Assembly (NCBI GenBank): GCA_028288725.1
Contig: JAQGIC010000062.1
Span: forward strand, 186,001-250,000
Reading direction: 5' to 3'
From: Rhodospirillales bacterium
Lineage (GTDB): Bacteria; Pseudomonadota; Alphaproteobacteria; ATCC43930; CGMCC-115725
DNA: 64,000 nt
The notes beneath the pieces were generated by a model. That model was not told the DNA's origin. It made no database searches and worked only from the letters and a program-made list of their open reading frames with translations. Positions 4,917 through 22,966 of this stretch are shown one piece after another. The position numbers and the translations under genes are program-made. Positions within the stretch are counted from its first letter, which is position 1. Every line of letters begins with the position of its first letter.

Positions 4917-6076
4917 TGATGCCGGCCGATCCGGCCGGCACTCCCGAAGGTCGAGGCCCCGCCGCAAGACGGGGCCTCGATTCGTTGCGGGATGCGCCGG
5001 CGCTCTATCTCAGTCCCCAGGGCTTTCTGTCGGGTGCTGCGGCCGCCGAGGCGGTCGCGGCCGGCTTTGCCTGGCGCATCGCCGGCGGCTGGACCGCCGC
5101 GAGCCTGGTTCAGGTCATCGCGCGCAAGCCGGCCGGCGGGGCCGAGCGGTGGCTCCTGCCGGTCGCCGAACTCTCCCATTGGCTGGATGAGGCCGACGGG
5201 CCGGCCGCGACACGGCTGCGCCTCCTGGCAGACCGGCTGCGGGCGGCGCGGCCGCCGTGGGCCGGCCTGCCGCTCGACCGGCCGCAGGTCATGGGCATCG
5301 TCAATACGACGCCGGACAGTTTCTCCGACGGCGGCGAGCATGACGCGCCCGACGCCGCCATCGCCCACGGCCTCGCACTCGCCGCCGCCGGCGCCACGAT
5401 CCTGGATGTCGGCGGGGAATCGACCCGGCCGGGGGCGGCCGAAGTCTCGGTGCAGCAGGAAATCGACCGGGTCGTGCCGGTCATCCGCGGGCTGGTCGCC
5501 GCGGGCGCGCTGGTCTCGGTCGACACGCGCCGGGGGCCGGTCATGGCGGCGGCGCTCGGTGCGGGGGCCGCTATTCTCAACGATGTCGAGGCGCTGCAGC
5601 AGCCGGGCACGTTGGATCTGGCCGCCGGCGCGCAGGCGCCGGTGGCGCTCATGCATATGCGCGGGCAGCCGCGGACCATGCAGGCCGATCCGCGCTACGA
5701 CGTGGCGGCGCTCGACGTGTTCGACTGGCTGGAGGCGCGGGTCGTCGCCTGCGGCGCGGCGGGTCTAGGGCCCGAGCGGATCCTGGTCGATCCGGGCATC
5801 GGGTTCGGCAAGGCGCTGGGGCATAATCTGCAGATCCTGGGCGCTCTCGGGCTCTATCACGGCCTGGGTGCCGGCATTCTGTTGGGCGTGTCGCGCAAAA
5901 GCTTCATCGGCAAGATCGATGGCACGGCCGGGCCGAAGCGGCGGCTGGGCGGGTCCTTGGCGGCCGCCCTGGACGGATGGGCCCGCGGCGCCCAGATTGT
6001 CCGCGTGCATGACGTGGCGGAGACCGTCCAGGCGATGCGCGTCGCGACCGCGATCGCCGAGGTGCAACAGTTTTAA
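4916..6076 (+). CDS. folP: Dihydropteroate synthase
   Basis: Condenses 6-hydroxymethyl-dihydropterin pyrophosphate with p-aminobenzoate in folate synthesis. The catalytic TIM-barrel begins near residue 124 with [16 protein letters not shown], followed by [13 protein letters not shown], a substrate-binding SVDTRR segment and the C-terminal [10 protein letters not shown]. The 120 or so residues before it are an extension, longer than in the E. coli enzyme (about 280 in all) and rich in Ala/Gly; similar extensions occur in alphaproteobacterial homologues. The ATG overlaps the ftsH stop by one base. Two hairpins occupy the first 65 bases, so an alternative start such as TTG 4985 is possible. Confidence 0.9.
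4920..4980 (+). promoter_or_regulatory. Paired hairpins at the ftsH-folP junction
   Basis: Two perfect stems follow the ftsH stop: an 8-bp stem (4920-4927 with 4933-4940) and an 11-bp stem (4951-4961 with 4970-4980, loop CCGCAAGA). The second looks like a terminator stem, but the bases after it are TTCGTTG and not a T tract. They fall inside the predicted 5' end of folP, so they may set the folP:ftsH ratio by attenuation, transcript stabilisation or by masking the start. Confidence 0.5.
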
Positions 6077-6146
6077 GGGTCCGGAGACGGCTGCCGGGTC
6101 ATATGGCGGCGATCTGGACGTATCGGCGACAAGCCGGGGGAATGGG

Positions 6147-7517
6147 ATGACACGCAAACTTTTCGGGACCGACGGCATTCGCGGCACGGCCAATACGGCA
6201 CCGATGACCGCCGATATCGCGCTCAAGGTCGCGGTCGCGGCCGCGCGCCAATTCCGCCGCGGGGCCCATCGCCATGTCGTCGTCATCGGCAAGGACACCC
6301 GGCTGTCCGGCTATATGCTGGAGCCGGCGCTGACCGCCGGCTTCATCTCGATGGGCATGGATTGCGTGCTGGTCGGCCCGATCCCGACGCCGGCCGTCGC
6401 CATGCTGACCCGCTCGCTGCGCGCCGATCTGGGCGTGATGATCTCGGCCTCGCACAATCCCTATGAGGACAATGGCATCAAGCTGTTCGGCCCGGACGGG
6501 CAGAAGCTGTCGGACGATATCGAGGCCGCGATCGAGGCGTCGGTCGCGACCGAAAACAGCGACGGCCTGGCGCCGTCCGCCCAGCTCGGCCGCGCCCGGC
6601 GGCTGGAGGACAATGGCGGCCGCTATATCGAATGGGTTAAGAACACCCTGCCGCGCGGCATGCGGCTCGACGGCATCCGCATCGTGGTCGATTGCGCCCA
6701 TGGCGCGGCCTACAAGGTGGCGCCGAGCGTGCTCTACGAGCTGGGCGCCGAGGTCATTCCGCTGGGCGTCTCGCCCGACGGCTTCAACATCAACCGGGAT
6801 TCCGGCGCCATGTCGCCGGCCGTCATGCAGAAGGCCGTGGTCGAGCACAAGGCCCATATCGGCCTGGCGCTGGATGGCGATGCCGACCGGCTGCTGGTCG
6901 CGGACGAGACCGGCGCGCTGCTCGACGGCGACCAGCTGATGGGCCTGATCGCCAGCCGCGCCCATCGCGCCGGCACCTTGAAGGGCGGCGGCCTGGTCGC
7001 GACCGTCATGTCCAACCTGGGGTTGGAGCGCTATCTGGCCGGGCTGGGCCTGTCACTCGCCCGCACCGCGGTCGGCGACCGCTACGTGTTCGAGCATATG
7101 CGCGAACATGGCTTCAACGTCGGCGGCGAGCAATCCGGCCATATCATCCTCACCGACTATTCGACCACCGGCGACGGCCTGCTGGCGGCCCTGCAGGTGC
7201 TGGCCGCCATGATCGAACGCCAGGCGCCGTTGAGCGAGGTCGGCCGGAGCTTCACGCCGCTGCCGCAGCGCCTGAAGAGCGTTCGCTTCGCCGCCGGCAG
7301 CGAGCCGCTGAAGATGCCGAAGATCATGGATGCGGTCCGCGACGCCGAGGCCCAGCTCGAAGGCAACGGCCGCCTGCTGATGCGCAAGTCCGGCACGGAA
7401 CCGGTCATCCGCGTGATGGCGGAGGGCGAGGACGAGGCGCTGGTCATGGCTGTGGTCGAGAGCCTGGCCGGCCTCATCGCCGATACCGCGGGCCCGTCGG
7501 GTCCGGCCGGGCATTGA
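6147..7517 (+). CDS. glmM: Phosphoglucosamine mutase
   Basis: Interconverts glucosamine-6-phosphate and glucosamine-1-phosphate, feeding UDP-GlcNAc for peptidoglycan and lipopolysaccharide. The N-terminus [14 protein letters not shown], the phosphoserine loop [12 protein letters not shown] near residue 102, the metal loop [13 protein letters not shown] and the C-terminal phosphate-binding [12 protein letters not shown] are all intact. The length of 456 residues matches the family. ATG 6147 is preceded by GGGGAATGGG. It lies 70 bases after folP, the common folP-glmM pairing. Confidence 0.96.
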
Positions 7518-8308
7518 CGGCGCCGCCCCGCATACTGATCGTCGCCGGCTCGGATTCCGGCGGCGGCGCCGGTCTGCAGGCCGATCTCAAGACGGTGCTG
7601 GCGCTCGGCGGCTATGGCATGACCGCCGTGACCGCGCTCACCGCGCAGAACACCGAAGGCGTGCACGAGGTGCTGGCGGTACCGGCCGGTTTCGTGCGCC
7701 GGCAGATGCGGGTCGTGCTCGACGATCTCGGAGCCGATGCGATCAAGACCGGCATGCTGAAGGATGCCGAGATCATCGCCGCCGTGGCGCAGGAACTGCC
7801 CGCCGGCGTGCCCCTGGTGGTCGATCCGGTCATGATCGCCAAGGGTGGAGCGGCCCTGCTCGATCCGCAGGCGATCGACGCGTTGAAACAGCTGCTGCTG
7901 CCGCGCGCGACCGTGCTGACCCCCAACCTGCCCGAGGCCGAGGCGCTGCTGGGCATCGCCATCGCCGATCTCGACGGGATGAAGCGGGCGGCCGGGCTGT
8001 TGCTGGGGCTGGGCCCGGCGGCGATCCTGCTGAAGGGCGGGCATCTGCCGGGCGATATGGTGCATGACGTGCTGATCGATGCCGAGGGCCTTCAGGTCTT
8101 CTCGGCGCCCCGCATCGTCTCGCGCCATACCCATGGGACCGGCTGTACGCTGGCGTCGGCACTGGCGACGGGGCTGGGCGCCGGTCTACCGCTGTCTGCC
8201 GCCGTCGTGCGCGCGCGTGATTATGTCCGCGAGGCTATTCGCACGGCGCCGGGTTTCGGGCATGGTCACGGCCCGCTGGGCCATGGCCATACGGTCGGTC
8301 GGTTTTAG
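7514..8308 (+). CDS. thiD: Hydroxymethylpyrimidine/phosphomethylpyrimidine kinase
   Basis: Phosphorylates HMP and HMP-phosphate for thiamine synthesis. Ribokinase-fold protein of 264 residues with the substrate loop [11 protein letters not shown]-like segment ([17 protein letters not shown]) at the N-terminus, the internal [10 protein letters not shown], and the C-terminal [12 protein letters not shown] anion-hole motif. No ATG lies close to the conserved N-terminus; TTG 7514 overlaps the glmM stop by four bases and gives [11 protein letters not shown] directly, so a TTG start with translational coupling is the best reading. No thiamine riboswitch is visible upstream. Confidence 0.9.
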
Positions 8309-8326
8309 GTTTCGGAGACAAAGTCG

Positions 8327-8815
8327 ATGATGCGATCCGGCTTGCGCTGGCTCTGGGTGACGGCTCTGGTGGTGGCGATCGACCAGGCCTCCAAGATCCT
8401 GCTGATCGAGCGGCTGCCCCCGTTCCGCCCGGTCGCGATCCTGCCGTCGCTGAATTTCCTGCTGACCTTCAACACCGGCGTGTCGTTCAGCTTCCTGCAG
8501 CTGTCGGGCGGGTGGCAGCGCTGGCCGCTGGCGATCTTCGCGATCGTCATCGTCGCCGTGCTGATCGGCTGGCTCGCCCGCCTGCCCGGCGACCGGCGCC
8601 TGCTGGGGGTCGCCGTCTCGATCATTCTGGGCGGGGCGGTCGGCAATCTGATCGACCGGGTCGCCAACGGCCAGGTGACCGATTTCATCCAGGTCTATTA
8701 CGGCACCTGGTCGTTTGCGATCTTCAATCTGGCCGACGCGGCGATCACCATCGGCGTGGCCATGATCCTGTTCGGCAATCTGCTGGGCGACGGCAGGTCG
8801 CGCCAGAACGCCTGA
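8327..8815 (+). CDS. lspA: Lipoprotein signal peptidase (signal peptidase II)
   Basis: Inner-membrane aspartic protease that cleaves prolipoproteins before the lipidated Cys. Four transmembrane segments fit 162 residues. The two catalytic Asp residues are visible in conserved blocks: D119 in NGQVTDF after GNLIDRV, and D137 in FNLADAAI. The N-terminal AIDQASK block is also conserved. It starts 18 bases after thiD and probably shares its transcript. Confidence 0.95.
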   Translation: MMRSGLRWLWVTALVVAIDQASKILLIERLPPFRPVAILPSLNFLLTFNTGVSFSFLQLSGGWQRWPLAIFAIVIVAVLIGWLARLPGDRRLLGVAVSIILGGAVGNLIDRVANGQVTDFIQVYYGTWSFAIFNLADAAITIGVAMILFGNLLGDGRSRQNA

Positions 8816-8839
8816 CCGGCTGATATCGGCGATATCAGC

Positions 8840-9058
8840 CTAATTGGCGATGGCGTGGCCGATTAGCGCGCCGCCGACCGCGCCGCCGACCGTCGCGGCG
8901 GTCTTGCCGCTGCCGTGGCCGAACTGATTGCCCGCATAGGCGCCGGCGCCGGCGCCCACCGTCTCGGCACAGCCGCCCAATGCCAGCGGGGCCAGGATCA
9001 GAGCCGCGATCGCCAGCTTCCGGAGCGGGCAAGTGGCTCGGCTTTCGAAATCGCGCAT
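8840..9058 (-). CDS. Small glycine-zipper outer-membrane lipoprotein
   Basis: A 72-residue product with a charged N-terminus, a hydrophobic stretch LAIAALILAPLAL and a lipobox LALGGC (lipidated Cys near residue 30). The mature part is Gly/Ala-rich with two glycine-zipper repeats (GAGAGAYAGNQFG and ATVGGAVGGALIGH), as in the SlyB/osmotically inducible lipoprotein class. Its role is unknown beyond likely envelope association. The start follows a GAGAAGGAGAAA-type purine-rich RBS (on the minus strand). It is convergent with lspA, with 24 bases between the stops. Confidence 0.75.
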   Translation of the reverse strand: MRDFESRATCPLRKLAIAALILAPLALGGCAETVGAGAGAYAGNQFGHGSGKTAATVGGAVGGALIGHAIAN

Positions 9059-9111
9059 GGCGTTTCTCCTTCTCGAATAGAGAAAAAACAGGCGACGACC
9101 CACTGGGTTCC

Positions 9112-10500
9112 TCACACGACCGATTGCAGCGGATCCGGTTCGGCGTCGCGCAGGTCGCGGATCGCCAGCAGCGCCGCCTCCAGCGTGCCCAGATCGGCGA
9201 CCGAACCCAGGCAGACGCGCACGCCGTTCATGGGGGCGACCCGGCCTACCGTAAAGGCATTGGCGCCGGTCACGGCAATGCCCAGGCGGCGCGCCTCGGT
9301 CACGAACTCGCTCGCCCGCCAGCGCTCGTCGAGCGGCAGCCACAGATGGTACGCAGTCGGTTCGCCCATCACGGCGCGGCCCAGAATGCGACGTGCCAGG
9401 ACCTGGCGCTGGGCGGCCTCCTGCCGCTTCGCGGCAGCCAGGCGCTCGGCGACGCCGCTGGAGATCCAGCGCGTCGCGATCTCGACCATCAGCGGCGGCA
9501 CCATCCAAATGGTCGAGCGCACGGCCAGCGCCAGCCGGTCGATCCGATCGGCCGGCGCCAGGATATAGCCGATGCGCAAGCCGGGCGCGGCACTCTTCGA
9601 CAGGCTGGTGACCAGGAAGGTCCGCTCCGGCGCCAAGGCCGCAAACGGCGCCGGGCGGTCGATCAGGAAGCCGTAGACGTCATCCTCGACGATCAGCACG
9701 TCGTGCCGCCGCGCCGTCTCGACGATCGCCTTGCGCCGCTCCAGCGACAGGGTGCCGGCCAAGGGGTTGCTGATGTTCGGCGTCAGATACAGCATGCGGA
9801 TCGGCCATTGCCGGCAGGCCGCGGCAAAGGCGTCGGGCAGCACGCCTTCGGCATCGACCGCGATGCCTTCCAGCCGGACCTGACGCAATTGGCAGGCGGC
9901 CTTCAGGCCGGGGTAGGTCATCGCCTCCGTCGCGACCACGTCGCCCGGATTGGCATAGGCGCCGAGGATGGTCGCCAGGCAATGCTGGCCGCCGGCGGTG
10001 ACGACGATGCGCTCGGGCGGGGCGTCGACGCCGGCAAGGCCGAGCCAAGCGCCGCCGGCCTCGCGCGCCGGCGGCAGGCCGGTGTGATTCTGGTATTGCA
10101 GCAGGGCCGCCAGATCCGGCCCGTCGGCGATCTCGCGCAACGTCTGGGCGAACAGCGCGATCTCTTCCCCCGGCATGGGGTGGTTCTGCGCCAGATTGAG
10201 CAGCCCCAGCGGTTCCGGCCCGCGCTCCGGCGGCAGCGACGACGGTGCCGGCGGCTCGGCGCCACGGATGAAGGTGCCGCGCCCGACCTCGCCGGCGATC
10301 AGCCCGCGCCGCTCCGCCTCGGCATAGGCCCGGCTGACCGTGCCGACCGTCACCTTCAGATGCCAGGCCAGATCGCGATGGGTCGGCAGCCGGTCGCCCG
10401 GCTTCAGGTGCCCCTCGCGGACGTCGTCGGCCAGCGCCTCCGCAATCGCGCGATAGCGGGGACCGGTGAAGCGGGCGGGATCGGGTTGCCATATTGTCAT
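9112..10500 (-). CDS. MocR/PdxR-type GntR regulator with aminotransferase domain
   Basis: Transcription regulator of 462 residues. Residues 1-75 form a GntR winged helix (DRLPTHRDLAWHLKVTVGTVSRAYAEAERRGLI) and residues about 110-460 a fold-type I aminotransferase-like domain that binds PLP, with the probable Schiff-base lysine in TSLSKSAAPGLRIGY. Such proteins sense PLP-amino acid adducts and usually regulate a divergent gene. Here the divergent unit is a DUF1127 gene, a PhzF-like gene and a threonine-dehydratase-like gene. A perfect palindrome covers its own start codon, which points to autoregulation. Confidence 0.88.
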   Translation of the reverse strand: MTIWQPDPARFTGPRYRAIAEALADDVREGHLKPGDRLPTHRDLAWHLKVTVGTVSRAYAEAERRGLIAGEVGRGTFIRGAEPPAPSSLPPERGPEPLGLLNLAQNHPMPGEEIALFAQTLREIADGPDLAALLQYQNHTGLPPAREAGGAWLGLAGVDAPPERIVVTAGGQHCLATILGAYANPGDVVATEAMTYPGLKAACQLRQVRLEGIAVDAEGVLPDAFAAACRQWPIRMLYLTPNISNPLAGTLSLERRKAIVETARRHDVLIVEDDVYGFLIDRPAPFAALAPERTFLVTSLSKSAAPGLRIGYILAPADRIDRLALAVRSTIWMVPPLMVEIATRWISSGVAERLAAAKRQEAAQRQVLARRILGRAVMGEPTAYHLWLPLDERWRASEFVTEARRLGIAVTGANAFTVGRVAPMNGVRVCLGSVADLGTLEAALLAIRDLRDAEPDPLQSVV

Positions 10501-10511
10501 GATGACAATAT
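10491..10511. promoter_or_regulatory. Perfect palindrome over the MocR start codon (probable operator)
   Basis: Arms ATATTGTCAT and ATGACAATAT flank a single G, so all 21 bases are symmetric. The left arm contains the start codon of the MocR-type regulator. Further TTGTCA-like half sites occur across 10524-10570 in the divergent promoter region, for example TTGTCAT at 10564-10570. This is the expected placement for an autoregulatory operator. That the MocR protein binds it is inference. Confidence 0.65.
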
Positions 10512-10531
10512 TCGGTTTGACCCATTGTCTC

Positions 10532-10560
10532 TGTCAATGTCTCTATTGAATAGATACAAT
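10532..10560 (+). promoter_or_regulatory. Predicted sigma-70 promoter for the DUF1127-PhzF unit
   Basis: TGTCAA at 10532-10537 and TACAAT at 10555-10560 are separated by 17 bases. It lies 34 bases upstream of the DUF1127 start and overlaps TTGTCA-like half sites, so regulation by the divergent MocR protein is plausible. The region is clearly richer in A and T than its surroundings. Confidence 0.5.
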
Positions 10561-10593
10561 TTTTTGTCATCTCGCGGCAGAGGAGATGAGTGT

Positions 10594-10797
10594 ATGGATA
10601 CAATATCGCTGGGGACGCGGCGTAAGGCGCCGTCGGCGCCCCGATCAACCCCCGTGGCCCTGCTGGGACTTTGGCTCGAGCGCGCCCGGTCGCGCCGCCA
10701 ATTGCGCCTTCTGCTCGCCAACCCGCACGCGCTGGCCGACCTGGGTCTCAGCCGGGACGAGGCCGATCTGGAATCCATCAAGCCGTTCTGGCGGTGA
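10594..10797 (+). CDS. DUF1127 small protein
   Basis: A 67-residue basic protein whose C-terminal half (RRQLRLLLANPHALADLGLSR ending in SIKPFWR, read from about residue 34) is the DUF1127/YjiS signature. Members are small cytosolic proteins; in some alphaproteobacteria they bind RNA or affect phosphate and carbon metabolism, but no general mechanism is established. ATG 10594 has AGAGGAGA upstream. It is the first gene after the MocR divergent promoter and is followed after 20 bases by the PhzF-like gene. Three more DUF1127 genes lie at 53.4, 53.6 and 57.9 kb. Confidence 0.8.
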   Translation: MDTISLGTRRKAPSAPRSTPVALLGLWLERARSRRQLRLLLANPHALADLGLSRDEADLESIKPFWR

Positions 10798-10817
10798 AGC
10801 AAAAGGGGAGCGGGGAC

Positions 10818-11627
10818 ATGACGACCGAGCTTTCGATCTATCAGGTCGACGCCTTCACGGACGATGTTTTCGGCGGCAATCCGGCGGCCGTCGTGCTGCT
10901 GCAGGATTGGCTGCCGGACGCGCTGCTGCAGCAGATCGCGGCCGAGAACAATCTGGCCGAGACCGCCTTTCTGGTGCGGGAACGCGATCTCTATCACTTG
11001 CGCTGGTTCACGCCGAAGCTCGAGGTCGATCTGTGCGGCCATGCCACGCTCGCCTCGGCCCAGGTCGTGTTCGAGATGCTGCACCCGGGCCGGCGCTCGG
11101 TCACGTTCCTGACGCGCAAGGCGGGTTCGCTGACCGTGACGATCCAGGGCGATCGGCTATCGATGGATTTCCCGTCGCGACCGCCGGAGCGGGTGGCGCC
11201 GCCGGTCGGGTTGGTCGAGGCCCTGGGGGCCGAGCCGGCCGAGGTCTGGGCCGCCGGCAAGCTCTTGTGCGTGTTCGAGACCGAGGGCGCGGTGAAGGCC
11301 CTGGCGCCGGATTTCCGCAAGGTCGCGGCGCTCGATTGTTTCGGCATCATCGCGACGGCGCCGGGCAACGGCGGCGTGGATTTCGTCTCGCGCTATTTCG
11401 CACCCCATGCCGGCATCGACGAGGACCCGGTCACCGGCTCCGCCCATTGCACGCTGGTGCCCTATTGGTCGCGCCGCCTGGGCAAGACCAAGCTCGAGGC
11501 GCATCAGATCTCGATGCGCGGCGGCCGGCTCTCGTGCGAGGATCGGGGCGGGCGCGTCAGCCTCGCCGGTCGCGCCGTGCTTTACCTCGAAGGCCGCATC
11601 TTCGTACCGTCCCCCACCGGAGTCTGA
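10818..11627 (+). CDS. PhzF family isomerase/epimerase-like protein
   Basis: PhzF-fold protein of 269 residues made of two diaminopimelate-epimerase-like halves. The conserved general-base Glu is at residue 48 in NNLAETAFLV, with the CGHATLAS loop near residue 75 and the second-half signature DEDPVTGSAHC near residue 205. Homologues include phenazine PhzF and enzymes of unknown substrate; no phenazine genes are present here, so the substrate is unknown. The gene has AAAAGGGGAG as RBS and is followed three bases later by a PLP dehydratase, suggesting amino acid conversion under the MocR regulator. Confidence 0.85.
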   Translation: MTTELSIYQVDAFTDDVFGGNPAAVVLLQDWLPDALLQQIAAENNLAETAFLVRERDLYHLRWFTPKLEVDLCGHATLASAQVVFEMLHPGRRSVTFLTRKAGSLTVTIQGDRLSMDFPSRPPERVAPPVGLVEALGAEPAEVWAAGKLLCVFETEGAVKALAPDFRKVAALDCFGIIATAPGNGGVDFVSRYFAPHAGIDEDPVTGSAHCTLVPYWSRRLGKTKLEAHQISMRGGRLSCEDRGGRVSLAGRAVLYLEGRIFVPSPTGV

Positions 11628-15341: not shown

Positions 15342-16634
<1,293 letters not shown>

Positions 16635-16680: not shown

Positions 16681-16701
16681 CTCCCGGTTATACTAGGGTT
16701 C

Positions 16702-16750
16702 CGGCGAACCGGTCCGGCGGGCGATGGCAGCCCGCCGGACCGGTTCGCCG
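16702..16750 (+). promoter_or_regulatory. Perfect 21-bp-stem hairpin in the 5' leader of the pseudokinase module
   Basis: Arms 16702-16722 and 16730-16750 are exact reverse complements, with the 7-base loop GATGGCA. The stem is GC-rich and ends 25 bases before the ATG at 16776. Bases after it read ATGGACTTTTA, a poor T tract, so it is not a classical terminator. It could stabilise the mRNA, block ribosome access, be an RNase III site, or end the purA transcript. Confidence 0.7.
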
Positions 16751-16775: not shown

Positions 16776-18803
16776 ATGGCGAAGCCCGTGGCGTCACCAG
16801 GGATGAAAGCGACGAGCGTGCGGCTGCACGATCGTTTCGAGATCCTATACGATGTACCGCTCGCCGACCTGCGCTCGCCCACCGCCCAGGCGTTCGATGT
16901 CGAAGACACGCGTTCGGTCGGTGGCAATTTCTTCGCGCTCATCGCCGATCCGACCCTGCCGCCGCGCGGGCAGGAACTCGGCATTCTGCGCATGATGAAG
17001 CACGAGGCGATCCTGACGCCGATCGATTTCGGCCCGGTCGATGGGGTGCAGGACAATCGCCGATGCCTGGCATTGATCTGCGAGCGGCCGGCCGGCGGCC
17101 GCCTGGTCGCCGGCAACGACCAGGTGATCACGCCCTGGTCGGACGATGAGATCATCCGTCGGCTGATCGAACCGGTCTTTCCGGGCCTCAAGGCGCTCTC
17201 GACCGAAAACACCACCCATCGATCGATCCGGCCGTCGAATATCCTGTTCCGGGATGCAGCCCGCCGGCACGCGATGCTGGGCGACTGCTTTACCGCGCCG
17301 ACCGCCTTCGATCAGCCGGTCGCCTACGAAACGATCGAGAACGCCATGGCGATGCCGACGGGGCGCGGCGTCGGCACCGTGTCGGACGATCTCTATGCCC
17401 TGGGCGTCACGGCGCTCCATCTGCTGATCGGCCGGTCGCCCGGCGGCGGCCTGAAGGGCGACGCGCTGATCGAGGAAAAGATCCGGCGCGGGTCCTACGC
17501 GGCGCTGTGCGGCGAACATCGCATTCCGACCATCCTGTATGAACTGCTGCGCGGCCTGCTGGTCGACGACCCGGCCGAACGCTGGGGCATTCGCGAGATC
17601 GATCTCTGGCTGCAGGGGCGTCGCATGGCGCCCAAGTCGCCCCCCAGCCCGCCGCGCGCCTCGCGCCCGATCGAGCTGAACGGCGAGCAGGTCTTCACGG
17701 CCCGCAGCGCCGCCCGCGCGCTCGTCCGCATGGGCGAGCAGTCGATCCACATCCTTCGCGGCCATACGCTCGAAGTCTGGCTGCAGCGTACGCTCGGGCA
17801 CAAGCTGAGCAGCGACAATTTCGCGATCGCCGTGGCCGATGTCGACGATACCAACGGCGCGGCCGGCGTCCACGATGCCCGGCTGCTCGCGCGGGTGGCA
17901 ATGGCGCTCGATCCGACCGCGCCGATCCGCTATCGCGGCCTGGCCGTGCAGCCCGAAGGGCTCGGCTGCGCGCTCGCCGTCGTCATGGCCCAGCGCGGCG
18001 ATCTGCGGCCGCTGGCCGAAATCCTGCTGGGGCGGTTGCCGCAATTCTGGTTCCGGTCCCAGCCGCTGCAGAAGATCGACCATCCCGTTCTGCTGATCGA
18101 ATTCGACCGGTTGCGCCGCCTGCTCGAGGATCATCGCCCCGGCCTCGGCATCGAACGGCTGGTCTATGACGCCAACCCCCTGTTGCATTGCTTGTCGCCG
18201 CTGATCGAGCGGGACTACGTCGACCAGTTGAACGACCTGCTGCCGGCGCTCGAGCGCGCGGTCGCCGGGGGGATGGTCGACAGCATGGTGGTCGATCGGC
18301 ATATCGCGGCCTTCGCCGCCAACCGGTCGAAGACGCTCGACGATCAGGTGCTGAGCGCGCTGGGGGAGGCGGACCCGGCCACGCGTTTGCTGGGACAGAT
18401 CTATCTGCTGGCGCTCATCCAGGCCCAGTGCGGCCCGGCGACCCTGCCGGCGCTGGCCCAGCTGCTGGGCAAACAGGCGAAGCCGGTCATCGAGCGCTAT
18501 CGCAGCCGCCAGACGCGCGCGCGGCTGGAAGGCCAGCTCGCGGCGGTGATCGCCGAGGGCAGCCTGACCCGCCTGGTGCATCTTCTGGATGATCTGTCCG
18601 AGCGCCAGGCCGATGCCCAGCGCTATGCGCAGGCCGGGCACCAATATTCCCGGGCCGAAGCCGGCCTCGAAAAGATCGAGTTCGAACGAGGGCAGATCGG
18701 CGAGGGTTCGAAGGATATGGGCGCCTTGATCGCGGCGGCGGTCTCGACCGTCGTCGGCGGCATCGCGATCGCGATGAGCCTCTATCATTTCGGCTATCTA
18801 TAG
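16776..18803 (+). CDS. Tail-anchored pseudokinase, copy 1
   Basis: A 675-residue protein with a degenerate eukaryotic-type kinase domain at about residues 15-285. The catalytic loop reads HRSIRPSNILF (148-158): the catalytic Asp of HRD is Ser150, while Asn155 is kept. The DFG position is GDC (169-171), D205 of the helix F block SDDLYALGVTALHLLIGR is kept, and R269 (DDPAERW) matches the late conserved Arg. No glycine loop or VAIK lysine is recognisable. Residues 300-640 are helical with no domain I recognise, and a single membrane helix near 648-668 ends the protein. No N-terminal signal is seen, so the bulk should be cytosolic. ATG 16803 is an alternative start. The gene is followed 8 bases later by a small membrane protein. 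Confidence 0.75.
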   Translation: MAKPVASPGMKATSVRLHDRFEILYDVPLADLRSPTAQAFDVEDTRSVGGNFFALIADPTLPPRGQELGILRMMKHEAILTPIDFGPVDGVQDNRRCLALICERPAGGRLVAGNDQVITPWSDDEIIRRLIEPVFPGLKALSTENTTHRSIRPSNILFRDAARRHAMLGDCFTAPTAFDQPVAYETIENAMAMPTGRGVGTVSDDLYALGVTALHLLIGRSPGGGLKGDALIEEKIRRGSYAALCGEHRIPTILYELLRGLLVDDPAERWGIREIDLWLQGRRMAPKSPPSPPRASRPIELNGEQVFTARSAARALVRMGEQSIHILRGHTLEVWLQRTLGHKLSSDNFAIAVADVDDTNGAAGVHDARLLARVAMALDPTAPIRYRGLAVQPEGLGCALAVVMAQRGDLRPLAEILLGRLPQFWFRSQPLQKIDHPVLLIEFDRLRRLLEDHRPGLGIERLVYDANPLLHCLSPLIERDYVDQLNDLLPALERAVAGGMVDSMVVDRHIAAFAANRSKTLDDQVLSALGEADPATRLLGQIYLLALIQAQCGPATLPALAQLLGKQAKPVIERYRSRQTRARLEGQLAAVIAEGSLTRLVHLLDDLSERQADAQRYAQAGHQYSRAEAGLEKIEFERGQIGEGSKDMGALIAAAVSTVVGGIAIAMSLYHFGYL

Positions 18804-18811
18804 CGGCGACC

Positions 18812-19357
18812 ATGGCGAAACTCCCCGCGATCCCGGCGATCCCCCCCCAGTCCGTGCCGCTCGACGCCCAGGCGCGCCGCGCGGTCGCGCGTCGGGCGAT
18901 GCGACCGCCGTCCAAGAAGGGCGGCGGGTTTCAGCTGTTCCTGCTGGGCGTGGGTGTCATCGCTCTGGCAGTGTTCGCGGCACCCACCTGCGTGCTGATG
19001 GTATTCGGCATGGTGCCCAGCATCGTCGCCTATGTGGTCGACCGGGGTAAGCGGCCGATGCTGGCCTTCACCATCGCCCCGCTCAATCTGGCCGGGCTTA
19101 TGCCCTATCTGCTGGAGCTTTGGACCGGGCACGATCAGATGCCGACGGTGGTGCATCTGCTGACCAACGTCTATGTCTGGCTCGTGATCTATCTGTCGGC
19201 CGGGGCCGGCTGGCTGGTGTTCATGGGCATGCCTCAGGTCATGACTTTCGTGCTTCAGCGCTCGCTCGACGGGCGGAAAGAAAAACTTAAGGCACTTCAG
19301 AGCAAGCTGCGCGCGGACTGGGGCCCGCAAGTGGGTGGCGGCGAGGATCAAATATAA
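18812..19357 (+). CDS. Small membrane protein, partner of pseudokinase copy 1
   Basis: A 181-residue protein that I cannot assign to a family. It has a basic N-terminal tail (RRAVARRAMRPPSKK), a hydrophobic helix near residues 40-75 (FLLGVGVIALAVFAAP and VLMVFGMVPSIVAYVVD), the block TIAPLNLAGLMPYLLELW, further hydrophobic segments near 115-150, and a charged, probably coiled C-terminus (KEKLKALQSKLRADWGPQV). The same blocks recur in the protein at 21504-22046. Overlap-like spacing with the upstream pseudokinase suggests the two act together. Confidence 0.7.
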   Translation: MAKLPAIPAIPPQSVPLDAQARRAVARRAMRPPSKKGGGFQLFLLGVGVIALAVFAAPTCVLMVFGMVPSIVAYVVDRGKRPMLAFTIAPLNLAGLMPYLLELWTGHDQMPTVVHLLTNVYVWLVIYLSAGAGWLVFMGMPQVMTFVLQRSLDGRKEKLKALQSKLRADWGPQVGGGEDQI

Positions 19358-19386
19358 ACCTTGGCGGCACTGTGCTGATGATTGCG

Positions 19387-19437
19387 CGCTCATGAGCGAA
19401 GCCGGTATGATCATACCGAAGCGCGGCCTTCGGCCGC
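19387..19437. promoter_or_regulatory. Cluster of palindromes between the two module copies
   Basis: Three dyads in 51 bases: CGCTCATGAGCG (19387-19398), CGGTATGATCATACCG (19403-19418) and a 6-bp stem GCGGCC/GGCCGC with loop TTC (19423-19437). They lie between the first membrane-protein gene and the second pseudokinase gene, where the 103-base gap is long enough for a promoter. The middle 16-bp palindrome looks most like an operator; the third could be an RNA hairpin. Confidence 0.5.
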
Positions 19438-19460
19438 ACATTTGAAAGCGAAAGGCGCGG

Positions 19461-21503
19461 ATGTCGGTCCAGCCGCAAGCGAACCCCAGTATGTCGACAA
19501 CGTCTGGGGCGACGGTGCGACTGAAGGATCGTTTCGACATCCATTATGACAAACCGTTGCCCGGTTTGCGCTCGCCTGCCGCACCGGCCTTTGTCGCCGA
19601 AGATATCAAGACCCCCGGCACCCGCCATTTCGCCCTGATCTGCGATCCGAAGATGCCGCCTCGGCTGGAGGCGGTGCGGAAACTGCAGATGCTGAAGAGC
19701 TATGGCGTGCTGACGCCGGTCGAGGTCGGCGCGGTCGATTGGGCGCCGGCCAATCGGCGCATGTTCGCCATGGTGTTCGAACAGCCGCTCGGCGACCGGC
19801 TGGCCGGACCGACCGACAATGCCATCACGCCCTGGGGCGAGGAGGCGCTGGTCGCCCATGTCGTCGCCCCGCTCGTGCAGACCCTGCTCGATCTCGACCG
19901 CGAGATGCTGCCGCATCGCGGCATCCGGCCGGGCAATATCTTCTTCCGCGACGCCAACCGGCGGATCGCCATGCTCGGCGACTGCGTGACCGCGCCGCCG
20001 GGTCTGTATCAGTCGGTCGTCTACGAGACGATCGAGGGCGGCCTGGCCCAGTCCCATACGCGGGGGTCCGGCACGACGGCGCAGGATCTCTATGCGCTCG
20101 GCGTGCTGGTGCTGCATCTGCTGTTCGGCAAGCTGCCCTGCGCCGGACAGACCGAAGAGAAGATCGTCGAGGACAAGATCAAGCGCGGCTCGTTCTACGC
20201 GCTGGTCAGCGAACAGCGGGTGCCCACCGGCCTCAGCGAACTGCTGCGCGGCTTGCTGGTCGACGACCCGCAGGCCCGCTGGCGTCTGGGCGACATCCAG
20301 ATGTGGCTCGACGGCCGCCGCATGACGCTGAAGCAGCCGGCCCCGGCGATCCGGGCGCCGCGCGGCTTCGAGATCGACGGCGAGGAATGCGAAACGGCGC
20401 GGCATCTGGCGCTGATGCTCGACATGCAGGAGCCCGAGGTGGCCGGCCGCATCCTGCGCGGCCCGAATTTCGAGACCTGGATTACCCGGACGCTCGGCGA
20501 CAAGCAGGTGGTCGAGGCGATCAACACCGCCTTTTCCACCCGCAGCGAATCGGCGGCCGGGACGTCCGGTCAGACCGCCCAGCTGGTCAGCCGCGTGCTG
20601 ATGGCGCTCGATCCGCCGGCGCCGATCCGCTTCCGCGACGCGGCCACCGCCGTGGACGGCATTGGCGCGCTGCTGGCCGTTACCATGCTGACCGGCGGCG
20701 ATCTGATGCTGCCGTCGGAGATTCTGAGCGCGCGCCTGCCGCAATTCTGGAGTCTGCGCCAGGGGTCGGCCAAGGGCGAGGATCAGGCGACGATCCGCTT
20801 CTTCGACAAGATGCTGCGCTATCTCGACGACAAGCGCCCGGGCTACGGCATCGAGCGCGTCGCCTACGAGATGATGCCGGGCCTGCACTGTCTGTCGCCC
20901 TTCATCGAAGCCCGCTATGTCGAGCAGATGAGGGATATGCTGCCCGCGATCGAATTCGCGGTGCAGGCCAAGACGATCGACGTGTCGCCGATCGATCGCC
21001 ATATCGCGGCCTTCATCGGGGTCTATGAAAACAATGTCGATGACGGGCTGCTCTATACGCTGATCCACGCGGATCCGGCGACGCGCGTGCTGGGTACGCT
21101 GCAGCTGCTGGCCTATCTGCAGGAGACCTATGGGCCGCCGATGGTGCCGTCGCTGATCCAATTGTTCGGCCAGCAGGCGAAGCCGGTGATCGAACGGTTC
21201 CGCAGCCGCTACACGCGCGCGCGGATGCAGACCGGCCTGACGGCGATCCTCAAGGAAAACAGCCTGCGCAAGCTGGCGGACTATCTCGATAGCGCCGATG
21301 AGCAGCGCAAGGACGCTCAACGATTCCAGAAGGCGCGGCTCGAATACCAGCAGACGATCAAGCAGGTGGAAAAGGCGACGCAGCAGACCGGTGAATTGAT
21401 GTCGACGGCCAAGTTGGCCGGTCATTCGGTCGCGGTGAAGATCGCAAGCCTGATTTCCAGCGCGATCATCGGGGTCACCCTGTTCGCCATGGGCGTGCTT
21501 TAG
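19461..21503 (+). CDS. Tail-anchored pseudokinase, copy 2
   Basis: A 680-residue paralogue of the protein at 16776, colinear from VRLKDRFDIHYD to the C-terminal membrane helix. The catalytic loop is HRGIRPGNIFF (152-162), with Gly154 in place of the catalytic Asp and Asn159 kept; GDC stands at the DFG position (173-175); D209 in QDLYALGVLVLHLL and R273 are kept. The helical C-terminal half shares long blocks with copy 1, such as IERVAYEMMPGLHCLSPFIE, VSPIDRHIAAFIGV, DPATRVLG and QAKPVIERFRSRYTRARM. ATG 19461 has AAAGG five bases upstream; ATG 19491 is an alternative. The stop is directly followed by the next ATG. Confidence 0.75.
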   Translation: MSVQPQANPSMSTTSGATVRLKDRFDIHYDKPLPGLRSPAAPAFVAEDIKTPGTRHFALICDPKMPPRLEAVRKLQMLKSYGVLTPVEVGAVDWAPANRRMFAMVFEQPLGDRLAGPTDNAITPWGEEALVAHVVAPLVQTLLDLDREMLPHRGIRPGNIFFRDANRRIAMLGDCVTAPPGLYQSVVYETIEGGLAQSHTRGSGTTAQDLYALGVLVLHLLFGKLPCAGQTEEKIVEDKIKRGSFYALVSEQRVPTGLSELLRGLLVDDPQARWRLGDIQMWLDGRRMTLKQPAPAIRAPRGFEIDGEECETARHLALMLDMQEPEVAGRILRGPNFETWITRTLGDKQVVEAINTAFSTRSESAAGTSGQTAQLVSRVLMALDPPAPIRFRDAATAVDGIGALLAVTMLTGGDLMLPSEILSARLPQFWSLRQGSAKGEDQATIRFFDKMLRYLDDKRPGYGIERVAYEMMPGLHCLSPFIEARYVEQMRDMLPAIEFAVQAKTIDVSPIDRHIAAFIGVYENNVDDGLLYTLIHADPATRVLGTLQLLAYLQETYGPPMVPSLIQLFGQQAKPVIERFRSRYTRARMQTGLTAILKENSLRKLADYLDSADEQRKDAQRFQKARLEYQQTIKQVEKATQQTGELMSTAKLAGHSVAVKIASLISSAIIGVTLFAMGVL

Positions 21504-22046
21504 ATGGCCCGCCCACCCACCTCGCGCGCCGGCGCGGGCAAGGCCGGCCAGGGTGCCAAGGACAAGGCTGCCGCGGCCGCCGCCCAGAGGCAGCGGCCGG
21601 CGGCGCCCATTGCCGCGAAAAGCGGCAAGAACGCCACGTTGATTCTGGCGATCATCGTCATGCTGGTGCTGGCCCTGTTCGAGCGGCCGGTCTGCATGCT
21701 GCTGTTTTTCGCGCTGGTGCCGACCATGCTGGCCTGGCTGGTCGACAACACGCCGGGCCAATCCCTGATCCGGACGGTGGCGCCGCTCAATCTCGCCAGT
21801 TCGCTGCCCTTCGCGATCAAGCTCTGGCACGAGCATAACTCGCTTGATCAGGTTTTCAGCTTCATGTCGGGCAGCGCCACCTGGGTGGCGCTCTATGGCG
21901 CCGCGGCATTCGGCTGGATGCTGTATTACCTGGCCCCGGCCGTGATCACCACCGTGGTGGAACGTCGGATCGAACGGCTGCGCGACGCCGCGCTCGACCG
22001 CCAGAAGGCGCTTAAGGACGAGTGGGGCGAAGATGTCGAAAAATAG
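21504..22046 (+). CDS. Small membrane protein, partner of pseudokinase copy 2
   Basis: A 180-residue paralogue of the 18812-19357 product. It has a basic, Ala-rich N-terminal tail of about 45 residues, membrane helices around 47-85 (ATLILAIIVMLVLALF, CMLLFFALVPTMLAWLVD), the shared block TVAPLNLASSLPFAIKLWHEH, a second hydrophobic region near 125-150 and a charged C-terminus (RIERLRDAALDRQKALKDEW). The start codon abuts the pseudokinase stop codon, so translation must be coupled. Family and function unknown. Confidence 0.7.
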   Translation: MARPPTSRAGAGKAGQGAKDKAAAAAAQRQRPAAPIAAKSGKNATLILAIIVMLVLALFERPVCMLLFFALVPTMLAWLVDNTPGQSLIRTVAPLNLASSLPFAIKLWHEHNSLDQVFSFMSGSATWVALYGAAAFGWMLYYLAPAVITTVVERRIERLRDAALDRQKALKDEWGEDVEK

Positions 22047-22078: not shown

Positions 22079-22966
22079 TCAGTTGGCGCTCAGGAGCCGC
22101 TGGCCCATCGCGGCCGATTTGATCGATTTCTGCAGCTTTTCGAAAGCCCGCACCTCGATCTGACGGACGCGCTCACGCGAGATGTTGTATTTGCGCGAGA
22201 GATCCTCGAGCGTCACCGGCTCGTCGCGCAGGCGCCGTTCGGTCAGAATGTGCCGCTCGCGGTCGTTGAGCGTCTTCATGGCGTTCTGCAGCAGGTCGCG
22301 GCGCAGGCCCAGCTCCTGGCGATCGCCCAGCTTGGCTTCCTGGCTCTCTTCCTGATCGACCAGCCAATCCTGCCATTCGCCCTCGCCATCCGCGCGCAGC
22401 GGGGCGTTCAGCGAATGATCGGGGCTGGCCAAGCGCCGGTTCATGTTGACCACGTCGCTCTCGGGCACTTCCAGCTTGGTCGCGATCGTCGTGACGATCT
22501 CCGGCGGCAGGTCGCCGTCCTCGATCGCCTGGAGCTGGCCCTTGAGCTTGCGCAGGTTAAAGAACAGCTTCTTCTGCGCCGCCGTCGTGCCCATTTTCAC
22601 CAGCGACCAGGAATGCAGGATATATTCCTGGATCGCGGCGCGGATCCACCACATGGCATAGGTCGCCAGGCGGAAGCCGCGGTCCGGGTCGAACCGCTTG
22701 ACCGCCTGCATCATGCCGACATTGCCTTCGGAAACCAGCTCGGACAGCGGCAGCCCGTAGCCGCGATAGCCCATCGCTATCTTGGCCACGAGGCGCAGAT
22801 GGCTTGTCACCAGGGTCTGGGCCGCGGCCGGGTCTTCATGCTCCTGCCAACGCTTGGCCAGCATGAATTCCTGCTCGGGTTCCAGCATCGGGAACTTGCG
22901 AATTTCTTGCAGATACCGCGACAGGTTGCCGTCGGCGCTGAGGCTCGGAAGATTGCCACCAGCCAT
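22079..22966 (-). CDS. rpoH: RNA polymerase sigma-32 (heat shock) factor
   Basis: Sigma-70 family factor of 295 residues directing heat-shock transcription. Region 2 blocks are intact (LVTSHLRLVAKIAMGYRGYG, LPLSELVSEGNVGMMQAVKRFDP cut here at ordinary family positions, FRLATYAMWWIRAAIQEYI), the RpoH box region follows (TAAQKKLFFNLRKLK), and region 4 ends with LEDLSRKYNISRERVRQIE. It lies 126 bases downstream of rluD on the same strand, a common alphaproteobacterial pair. RpoH is a known FtsH substrate in E. coli, and ftsH lies in this window. Confidence 0.95.
   Translation of the reverse strand: MAGGNLPSLSADGNLSRYLQEIRKFPMLEPEQEFMLAKRWQEHEDPAAAQTLVTSHLRLVAKIAMGYRGYGLPLSELVSEGNVGMMQAVKRFDPDRGFRLATYAMWWIRAAIQEYILHSWSLVKMGTTAAQKKLFFNLRKLKGQLQAIEDGDLPPEIVTTIATKLEVPESDVVNMNRRLASPDHSLNAPLRADGEGEWQDWLVDQEESQEAKLGDRQELGLRRDLLQNAMKTLNDRERHILTERRLRDEPVTLEDLSRKYNISRERVRQIEVRAFEKLQKSIKSAAMGQRLLSAN

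Follow-up and report, generated by a model that had tools for sequence, protein, structure and literature searches.

The window, by which we mean the whole stretch of 64,000 nucleotides that was analysed, contains two tandem copies of a two-gene unit encoding a large tail-anchored pseudokinase (A) and a small polytopic membrane protein (B). A and B form an established, near-obligate genetic partnership, and A is confirmed as a pseudokinase by descent throughout its family. The A-B unit is an old alphaproteobacterial module that is single-copy in most genomes and mostly located between purA and rpoH, and it was duplicated late in this lineage.

Organization of the tandem units

Four open reading frames lie on the forward strand in the order A1 (16776-18803, 675 residues with an ATG start), B1 (18812-19357, 181 residues), A2 (19461-21503, 680 residues), and B2 (21504-22046, 180 residues), with 8 bases between A1 and B1 and 0 bases between A2 and B2. 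The lengths, the ABAB order, and both gaps match exactly those given in an earlier sequence-only reading of this DNA. A1 and A2 are colinear end to end with 45% identity over 677 columns, and B1 and B2 share 31% identity over 141 columns (E = 2e-29), in agreement with the paralogy that the same reading had claimed for both proteins. A1 is comprised of a pseudokinase domain (residues 11-282), a helical domain (residues 296-606, approximately), and a long helix (residues 607-674) that carries the sole membrane span of the protein. A2 has the same architecture, with HRG replacing HRD and a C-terminal membrane span at residues 661-679. The tandem units are flanked by purA (15342-16634, forward strand) on the upstream side and by rpoH, encoding sigma-32, on the downstream side and opposite strand (22079-22966, reverse strand), which are the usual neighbours of the A-B unit.

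A is a pseudokinase throughout its family

The AlphaFold2 model of A1, for which an alignment of 78 sequences was used as input, has a mean pLDDT of 92 and a pTM of 0.86. Structure comparison of the model shows that residues 11-282 (16809-17621, forward strand) form a bilobal kinase, with a Z score of 23.5 to WNK3 and a root mean square deviation of 2.7 over 252 residues. A eukaryotic-type kinase fold had been claimed for residues 15-285 from the sequence, and this fold is present in the model. When scored against the Pfam Pkinase profile, A1 reaches 31.9 bits, just above the cut-off of 31.7, and A2 reaches 27.7 bits, which is below it.

In A1, I56 occupies the position of the VAIK lysine, HRS (residues 148-150) is found in place of HRD, and D170-C-F in place of DFG; the catalytic-loop N155, the alphaF residue D205, and R269 are kept. 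Among 156 members of the A family, V or I predominates at the VAIK lysine position, with K in 1/156, and A, S, N, or G at the HRD aspartate position, with D likewise in 1/156, the triplets including HRA (75 sequences), HRS (19), HGA (17), and HRN (14). The DFG glycine occurs in 0/156, and the Phe and Gly of this motif have mainly been replaced by C and V/L/A. The absence of the catalytic residues throughout the 156 members indicates that the loss of catalysis is older than the radiation of the family, and the pseudokinase features that had been read from the window are thus borne out over its relatives. With the VAIK lysine, the HRD aspartate, and DFG lost, A does not belong with the active Ser/Thr kinases and is a pseudokinase with a eukaryotic-type kinase fold. 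Several other positions are strongly conserved, namely N155 (153/156), D205 (155/156), R269 (154/156), and R64 (149/156), and the DFG-Asp position holds an acid in 143/156 members (D in 83 and E in 60). Because N155 and the acid at the DFG-Asp position survive, residual nucleotide or metal binding by A is possible.

The helical domain, the membrane anchor, and the partner protein B

The helical domain of A1 (17661-18593, forward strand) matches no family among those searched, although it may have a known fold; when its profile was compared with Pfam and PDB, the only matches were short and repeat-like or at chance level. Among 299 genomes drawn from the phylum, a sample for which the share of other classes is not given, all 11 hits of this profile are in Alphaproteobacteria. 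The 12 helical-domain matches in these genomes are all situated in long open frames with no stand-alone short one among them, and one match (G332) is a broken A. Residues E460, Y464, C472, S474, D507, and H509 of the A1 helical domain are near-invariant across the 156 relatives. The almost complete invariance of Cys472, Asp507, His509, Glu460, and Tyr464 (A1 residues 460-509, window positions 18153-18302) is unusual for a mere scaffold, and these residues could possibly make up a hidden active or metal site.

Hydropathy analysis of A1 gives one clear hydrophobic span, residues 651-669, at the end of the long helix. There is almost nothing beyond this span, indicating that A is tail-anchored, with the bulk of the protein presumably positioned in the cytoplasm. 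B1 has three clear hydrophobic spans and B2 two strong ones, so that the membrane anchoring claimed for the module is upheld by one C-terminal span in A and several spans in B. The predicted model of B2 (pLDDT 83, pTM 0.62) consists entirely of helices, the C-terminal one being 51 residues long (residues 124-174) and ending in WGED. The W-G motif at the end of this helix is conserved and lies at 19319-19324 in the C-terminal helix of B1, which belongs to no known family. Comparison of the predicted B fold with PDB gave no match (best E 2.9), and the B profile gave only chance or short repeat-like matches to Pfam and PDB sequences.

Distribution of the A-B unit

In searches of genome contigs for A, a single-protein query gave no match and a 17-row alignment was too diverse, and a narrower alignment worked. 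The A profile has matches in 145/387 alphaproteobacterial genomes, and a strong, full-length A is present in 130/387. The 80 named A loci include those of Azospirillum, Magnetospirillum, Thalassospira, Roseospira, and SAR116. Three of them are cut by contig ends, and B lies directly 3' of A in 75 of the 77 testable loci, as well as in 30/30 further loci. In Magnetospirillum fulvum and a relative (L087 and L103), A occupies the purA locus but is not directly followed by B. The commonest order across the named loci, seen in many families, is purA-A-B-rpoH-rluD. On the chromid of Azospirillum ramasamyi, A and B are together at a site away from purA/rpoH, and the pair is still together at several further loci away from purA. 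A search for natural A-B fusions found none. At 27 loci, the evolutionary distances of A and B correlate with a partial r of 0.57 after those of purA and rpoH are removed, and 0/1000 permutations gave a value as high. The near-universal adjacency, together with a distance correlation beyond that of purA/rpoH, supports the proposal of the sequence-only reading that the products act together. Of the two outcomes that this reading had named as refuting it, lack of a kinase-like fold and rare adjacency of A and B in other genomes, neither was observed. The tandem layout, for which it knew no described system, is not the unusual thing; the A-B unit itself is old and widespread and the duplication is late.

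The Azospirillum protein WP_246024353.1 is annotated as a "serine/threonine protein kinase" and is of the same family as A; the "hypothetical protein" WP_111068492.1 directly after it has the size and position of B. The kinase annotation is contradicted by the motifs of the A family.

Second A copies without an adjacent B were observed at L158, L161, and L175, in three families. L158 and L161 make up one divergent clade, which may represent a B-independent subfamily.

Duplication, selection, and upstream elements

The second genome of the genus also carries the four genes in ABAB order, each of them intact. The trees of A and B agree, with A1, A2, B1, and B2 each pairing with its sister-genome counterpart, and both trees place the duplication inside the family and before the split of the two genomes. 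In both trees, A1/B1 and A2/B2, their sister-genome counterparts, and the units of two further family members make up one clade, and an AB unit from another locus of G012 clusters with A2/B2. The concordance of the trees indicates that the whole unit was duplicated within the family, which confirms the suggested duplication of a two-gene unit and excludes chance similarity. Between the two genomes, pN/pS is 0.39-0.50 for all four genes compared with 0.13 for purA, and protein identity is 66-75%; judged from these sequences, all copies are under purifying selection.

An independent tandem ABAB is present in another family, in the 2.0-Mb genome G156 (L156, G156:C2:120000-137000, about 5723-10901, minus strand). 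It adjoins an FlhA gene, which chance alone could explain, and a third AB unit of this genome lies beside purA (L157).

Upstream of A1, a -10-like element TATACT (16689-16694, forward strand) is positioned within a block, TTATACT, whose conservation extends to the other genome of the genus. Just downstream of this element, between purA and A1, there is a perfect 21-bp hairpin with a 7-base loop (16702-16750, forward strand; z -5.5, and -65 kcal/mol when the flanks are included). At the corresponding position, the sister genome carries a hairpin that is unrelated but also stable, which may mean that a leader or terminator structure is being preserved between purA and A1. A putative A2 promoter, TTGCGC and TATGAT separated by 18 nt (19382-19411, forward strand), has the counterpart TTGCAT-18-TATGAT in the second genome. 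A consensus promoter scan reported neither the A1 element nor the putative A2 promoter, and Rfam gave no match. The conserved -10-like blocks and the purA-A1 hairpin make separate transcription of the A1 and A2 units likely.

Association with the flagellum and CtrA

Among the 387 Alphaproteobacteria, FlhA is present in 117/130 A-positive compared with 110/257 A-negative genomes (odds ratio 12, p = 8e-21). With correction by family and genome size only and not by a full phylogenetic model, the association is also observed with one genome per family (median odds ratio 11, p = 9e-9) and within genome-size strata (odds ratio 8.4). For genomes smaller than 2.1 Mb, FlhA is found in 25/25 A-positive and 32/109 A-negative genomes. 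The control PhaC, which is of similar prevalence, gives an odds ratio of 3.4 overall and is present in 15/25 of the small A-positive genomes; the control MreB (362/387) is too common to inform. The 110 FlhA-positive genomes without A and the 13 A-positive genomes without FlhA, some of these assemblies being incomplete, indicate that A is neither core to the flagellum nor strictly dependent on it. The canonical A-B neighbours purA, rpoH, and rluD are not motility genes.

Flagellar genes are controlled by CtrA in every alphaproteobacterial order studied (PMC8116508), and the full CtrA site is TTAA(N7)TTAA (PMC6180460). A perfect TTAA-N7-TTAA is present upstream of 8/120 A genes, compared with 0-1 at each of the spacings 3-6 and 8-11, and none with spacing 7 was found upstream of purA, rpoH, rluD, or B. 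L119 and L125, two of the eight perfect boxes, represent a single site shared by close relatives, and another two fall inside an open A frame. A1 and A2 of the window have no CtrA box, with the best candidate carrying 3 mismatches. The CtrA-box signal at A genes is probably real and confined to a subset of lineages. Sigma-54, RpoH-type, and sigma-70 consensus sites precede A no more often than expected by chance. The CtrA and flagellar link had not been foreseen by the sequence-only reading.

Discussion

In the model we propose, A would be a pseudokinase tail-anchored in the inner membrane, and B a small membrane protein that serves as its dedicated partner. The kinase fold of A, incapable of canonical phosphotransfer, would form a cytoplasmic protein-binding platform together with the helical domain, and B would either hold this platform at the membrane or gate it from the membrane, with the signal carried by conformational change or recruitment rather than by phosphorylation. 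The A-B complex would serve a CtrA-linked programme tied to the flagellum or the cell pole, and in this genus the duplicated unit would have diverged into two parallel versions, A1B1 and A2B2, with separate promoters. A membrane scaffold role of A-B is likely, and a motility role is plausible. We infer physical contact between A and B, a role of the pair in motility or at the pole, and, by analogy, a non-catalytic scaffold mechanism for A; the adjacency of the two genes and their distance correlation lend indirect support to a scaffold complex.

The complex might instead serve envelope or stress homeostasis, in which case the flagellum correlation would be a by-product of a free-living lifestyle and shared ancestry. 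The canonical purA-rpoH position across many families fits such a role, as do the 13 A-positive genomes that lack FlhA, including G010, a 100%-complete relative, the action of the membrane pseudokinase MviN in peptidoglycan synthesis (PMC12599244), and the correlation of A with the unrelated control PhaC. However, the FlhA association is far above that of PhaC, holds per family and across the size strata, and is complete in small genomes, and the CtrA-box spacing signal likewise argues against a homeostatic role, which we consider rather unlikely although deserving of serious attention. It is improbable that the A pocket performs atypical nucleotide-dependent chemistry, or senses a nucleotide or metal, with B as the substrate or anchor. 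The retention of N155, of R64, and of D or E at the DFG-Asp position would favour such a function, and SelO (AMPylation) and SidJ (glutamylation) are examples of pseudokinases that are enzymes (PMC12599244), but the VAIK lysine is kept in a single family member, the DFG Phe and Gly are mainly replaced, and Pfam/NCBIfam scans detected no atypical-kinase enzyme family.

Weak matches of the A kinase domain to MAD6 (1e-8), PADLOC MkoA, and PD-T4-6 could indicate an anti-phage defence kinase module of one of these types. These matches are limited to the generic kinase domain, with MAD6 (NCBIfam NF047741) scoring 34.2 and 35 bits against a cut-off of 460, and the position of the unit at a housekeeping locus, conserved in most families, together with the missing canonical catalytic residues, makes a defence function extremely improbable. 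The divergence of A1 from A2, at 45% identity, and pN/pS values above that of purA would be expected if the second copy were a decaying duplicate without function. Such decay is hardly credible, however, with the four genes intact in two genomes, protein identity of 66-75%, pN/pS below 1, and the family motifs kept; the start context and promoter-like elements are conserved in the second genome, and the AB unit grouping with A2/B2 has been kept at another G012 locus.

A membrane pseudokinase-scaffold complex that serves a CtrA-linked flagellar or pole programme and has been duplicated into two versions has, in our estimate, about an even chance of being correct. We put forward more tentatively, and with some doubt, that an ancient alphaproteobacterial tail-anchored pseudokinase family with an obligate small membrane partner is a CtrA-linked regulatory scaffold of the flagellum or pole, represented by two specialised pairs in this genus. 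To our knowledge, no bacterial Ser/Thr-type pseudokinase has previously been tied to motility. The A-B unit occurs in the tractable genera Azospirillum, Magnetospirillum, and Thalassospira, yet its annotation is that of an active kinase. Through the FlhA association and the CtrA boxes, this orphan pair becomes open to a direct test by genetics, and in this genus a comparison of A1-B1 with A2-B2 offers a natural experiment on specificity. Very little work has been done on bacterial pseudokinases; seven families are covered in a 2025 review, and a function is known for only a few individual proteins (PMC12599244). To these, A-B adds a family that is deeply conserved and has a fixed partner gene.

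Among bacterial membrane pseudokinases, EssB/YukC and MviN provide functional precedents (PMC12599244). EssB/YukC is a membrane-anchored pseudokinase that acts as a non-catalytic scaffold in type VII secretion in Firmicutes (PMC12599244), and the likeness to A, on the model proposed here, is that of a membrane-anchored pseudokinase scaffold. In contrast to EssB/YukC, A has no type VII context and has a large helical domain before its membrane span as well as the partner B, and neither A1 nor A2 matched the EssB/YukC family in Pfam or NCBIfam. The MviN/MurJ pseudokinase (ActPs3, Mycobacterium) and A both have degraded motifs and are membrane associated. The MviN pseudokinase is part of a transmembrane protein required for peptidoglycan synthesis in Actinobacteria, whereas A has no such domain and keeps N155, D205, and R269. 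The GLW pseudokinases resemble A in being proteobacterial and in having a C-terminal membrane span (PMC12599244), but they have GLW for HRD and a poly-Leu/Trp beta3 strand, compared with HRA/HRS/HGA/HRN and FAL(I/V) in the A family. Membership of A in the GLW family was rejected, with no GLW in 156 sequences. CP1 pseudokinases are linked to a COG3899 ATPase domain and have no membrane span (PMC12599244); A was rejected as a CP1 member, as Pfam scans gave no ATPase domain and a C-terminal span is present.

Compared with the window, the Azospirillum pair WP_246024353.1/WP_111068492.1 is a single unit, located on a chromid and away from purA/rpoH. In the papers searched on pseudokinases in Azospirillum or Alphaproteobacteria, or on a purA-rpoH kinase, no description of the A-B family was found. 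Judged from the published descriptions of their motifs (PMC12599244) rather than from profile scores, A probably lies outside ActPs1-3, DYD, and DLHK; the DLHK pseudokinases, for instance, keep the HRD Asp and are without membrane spans (PMC12599244). With ActPs1-3, DYD, and DLHK compared by description only, A is best regarded as a new family among the membrane pseudokinases, themselves a known kind, with a new partner, B.
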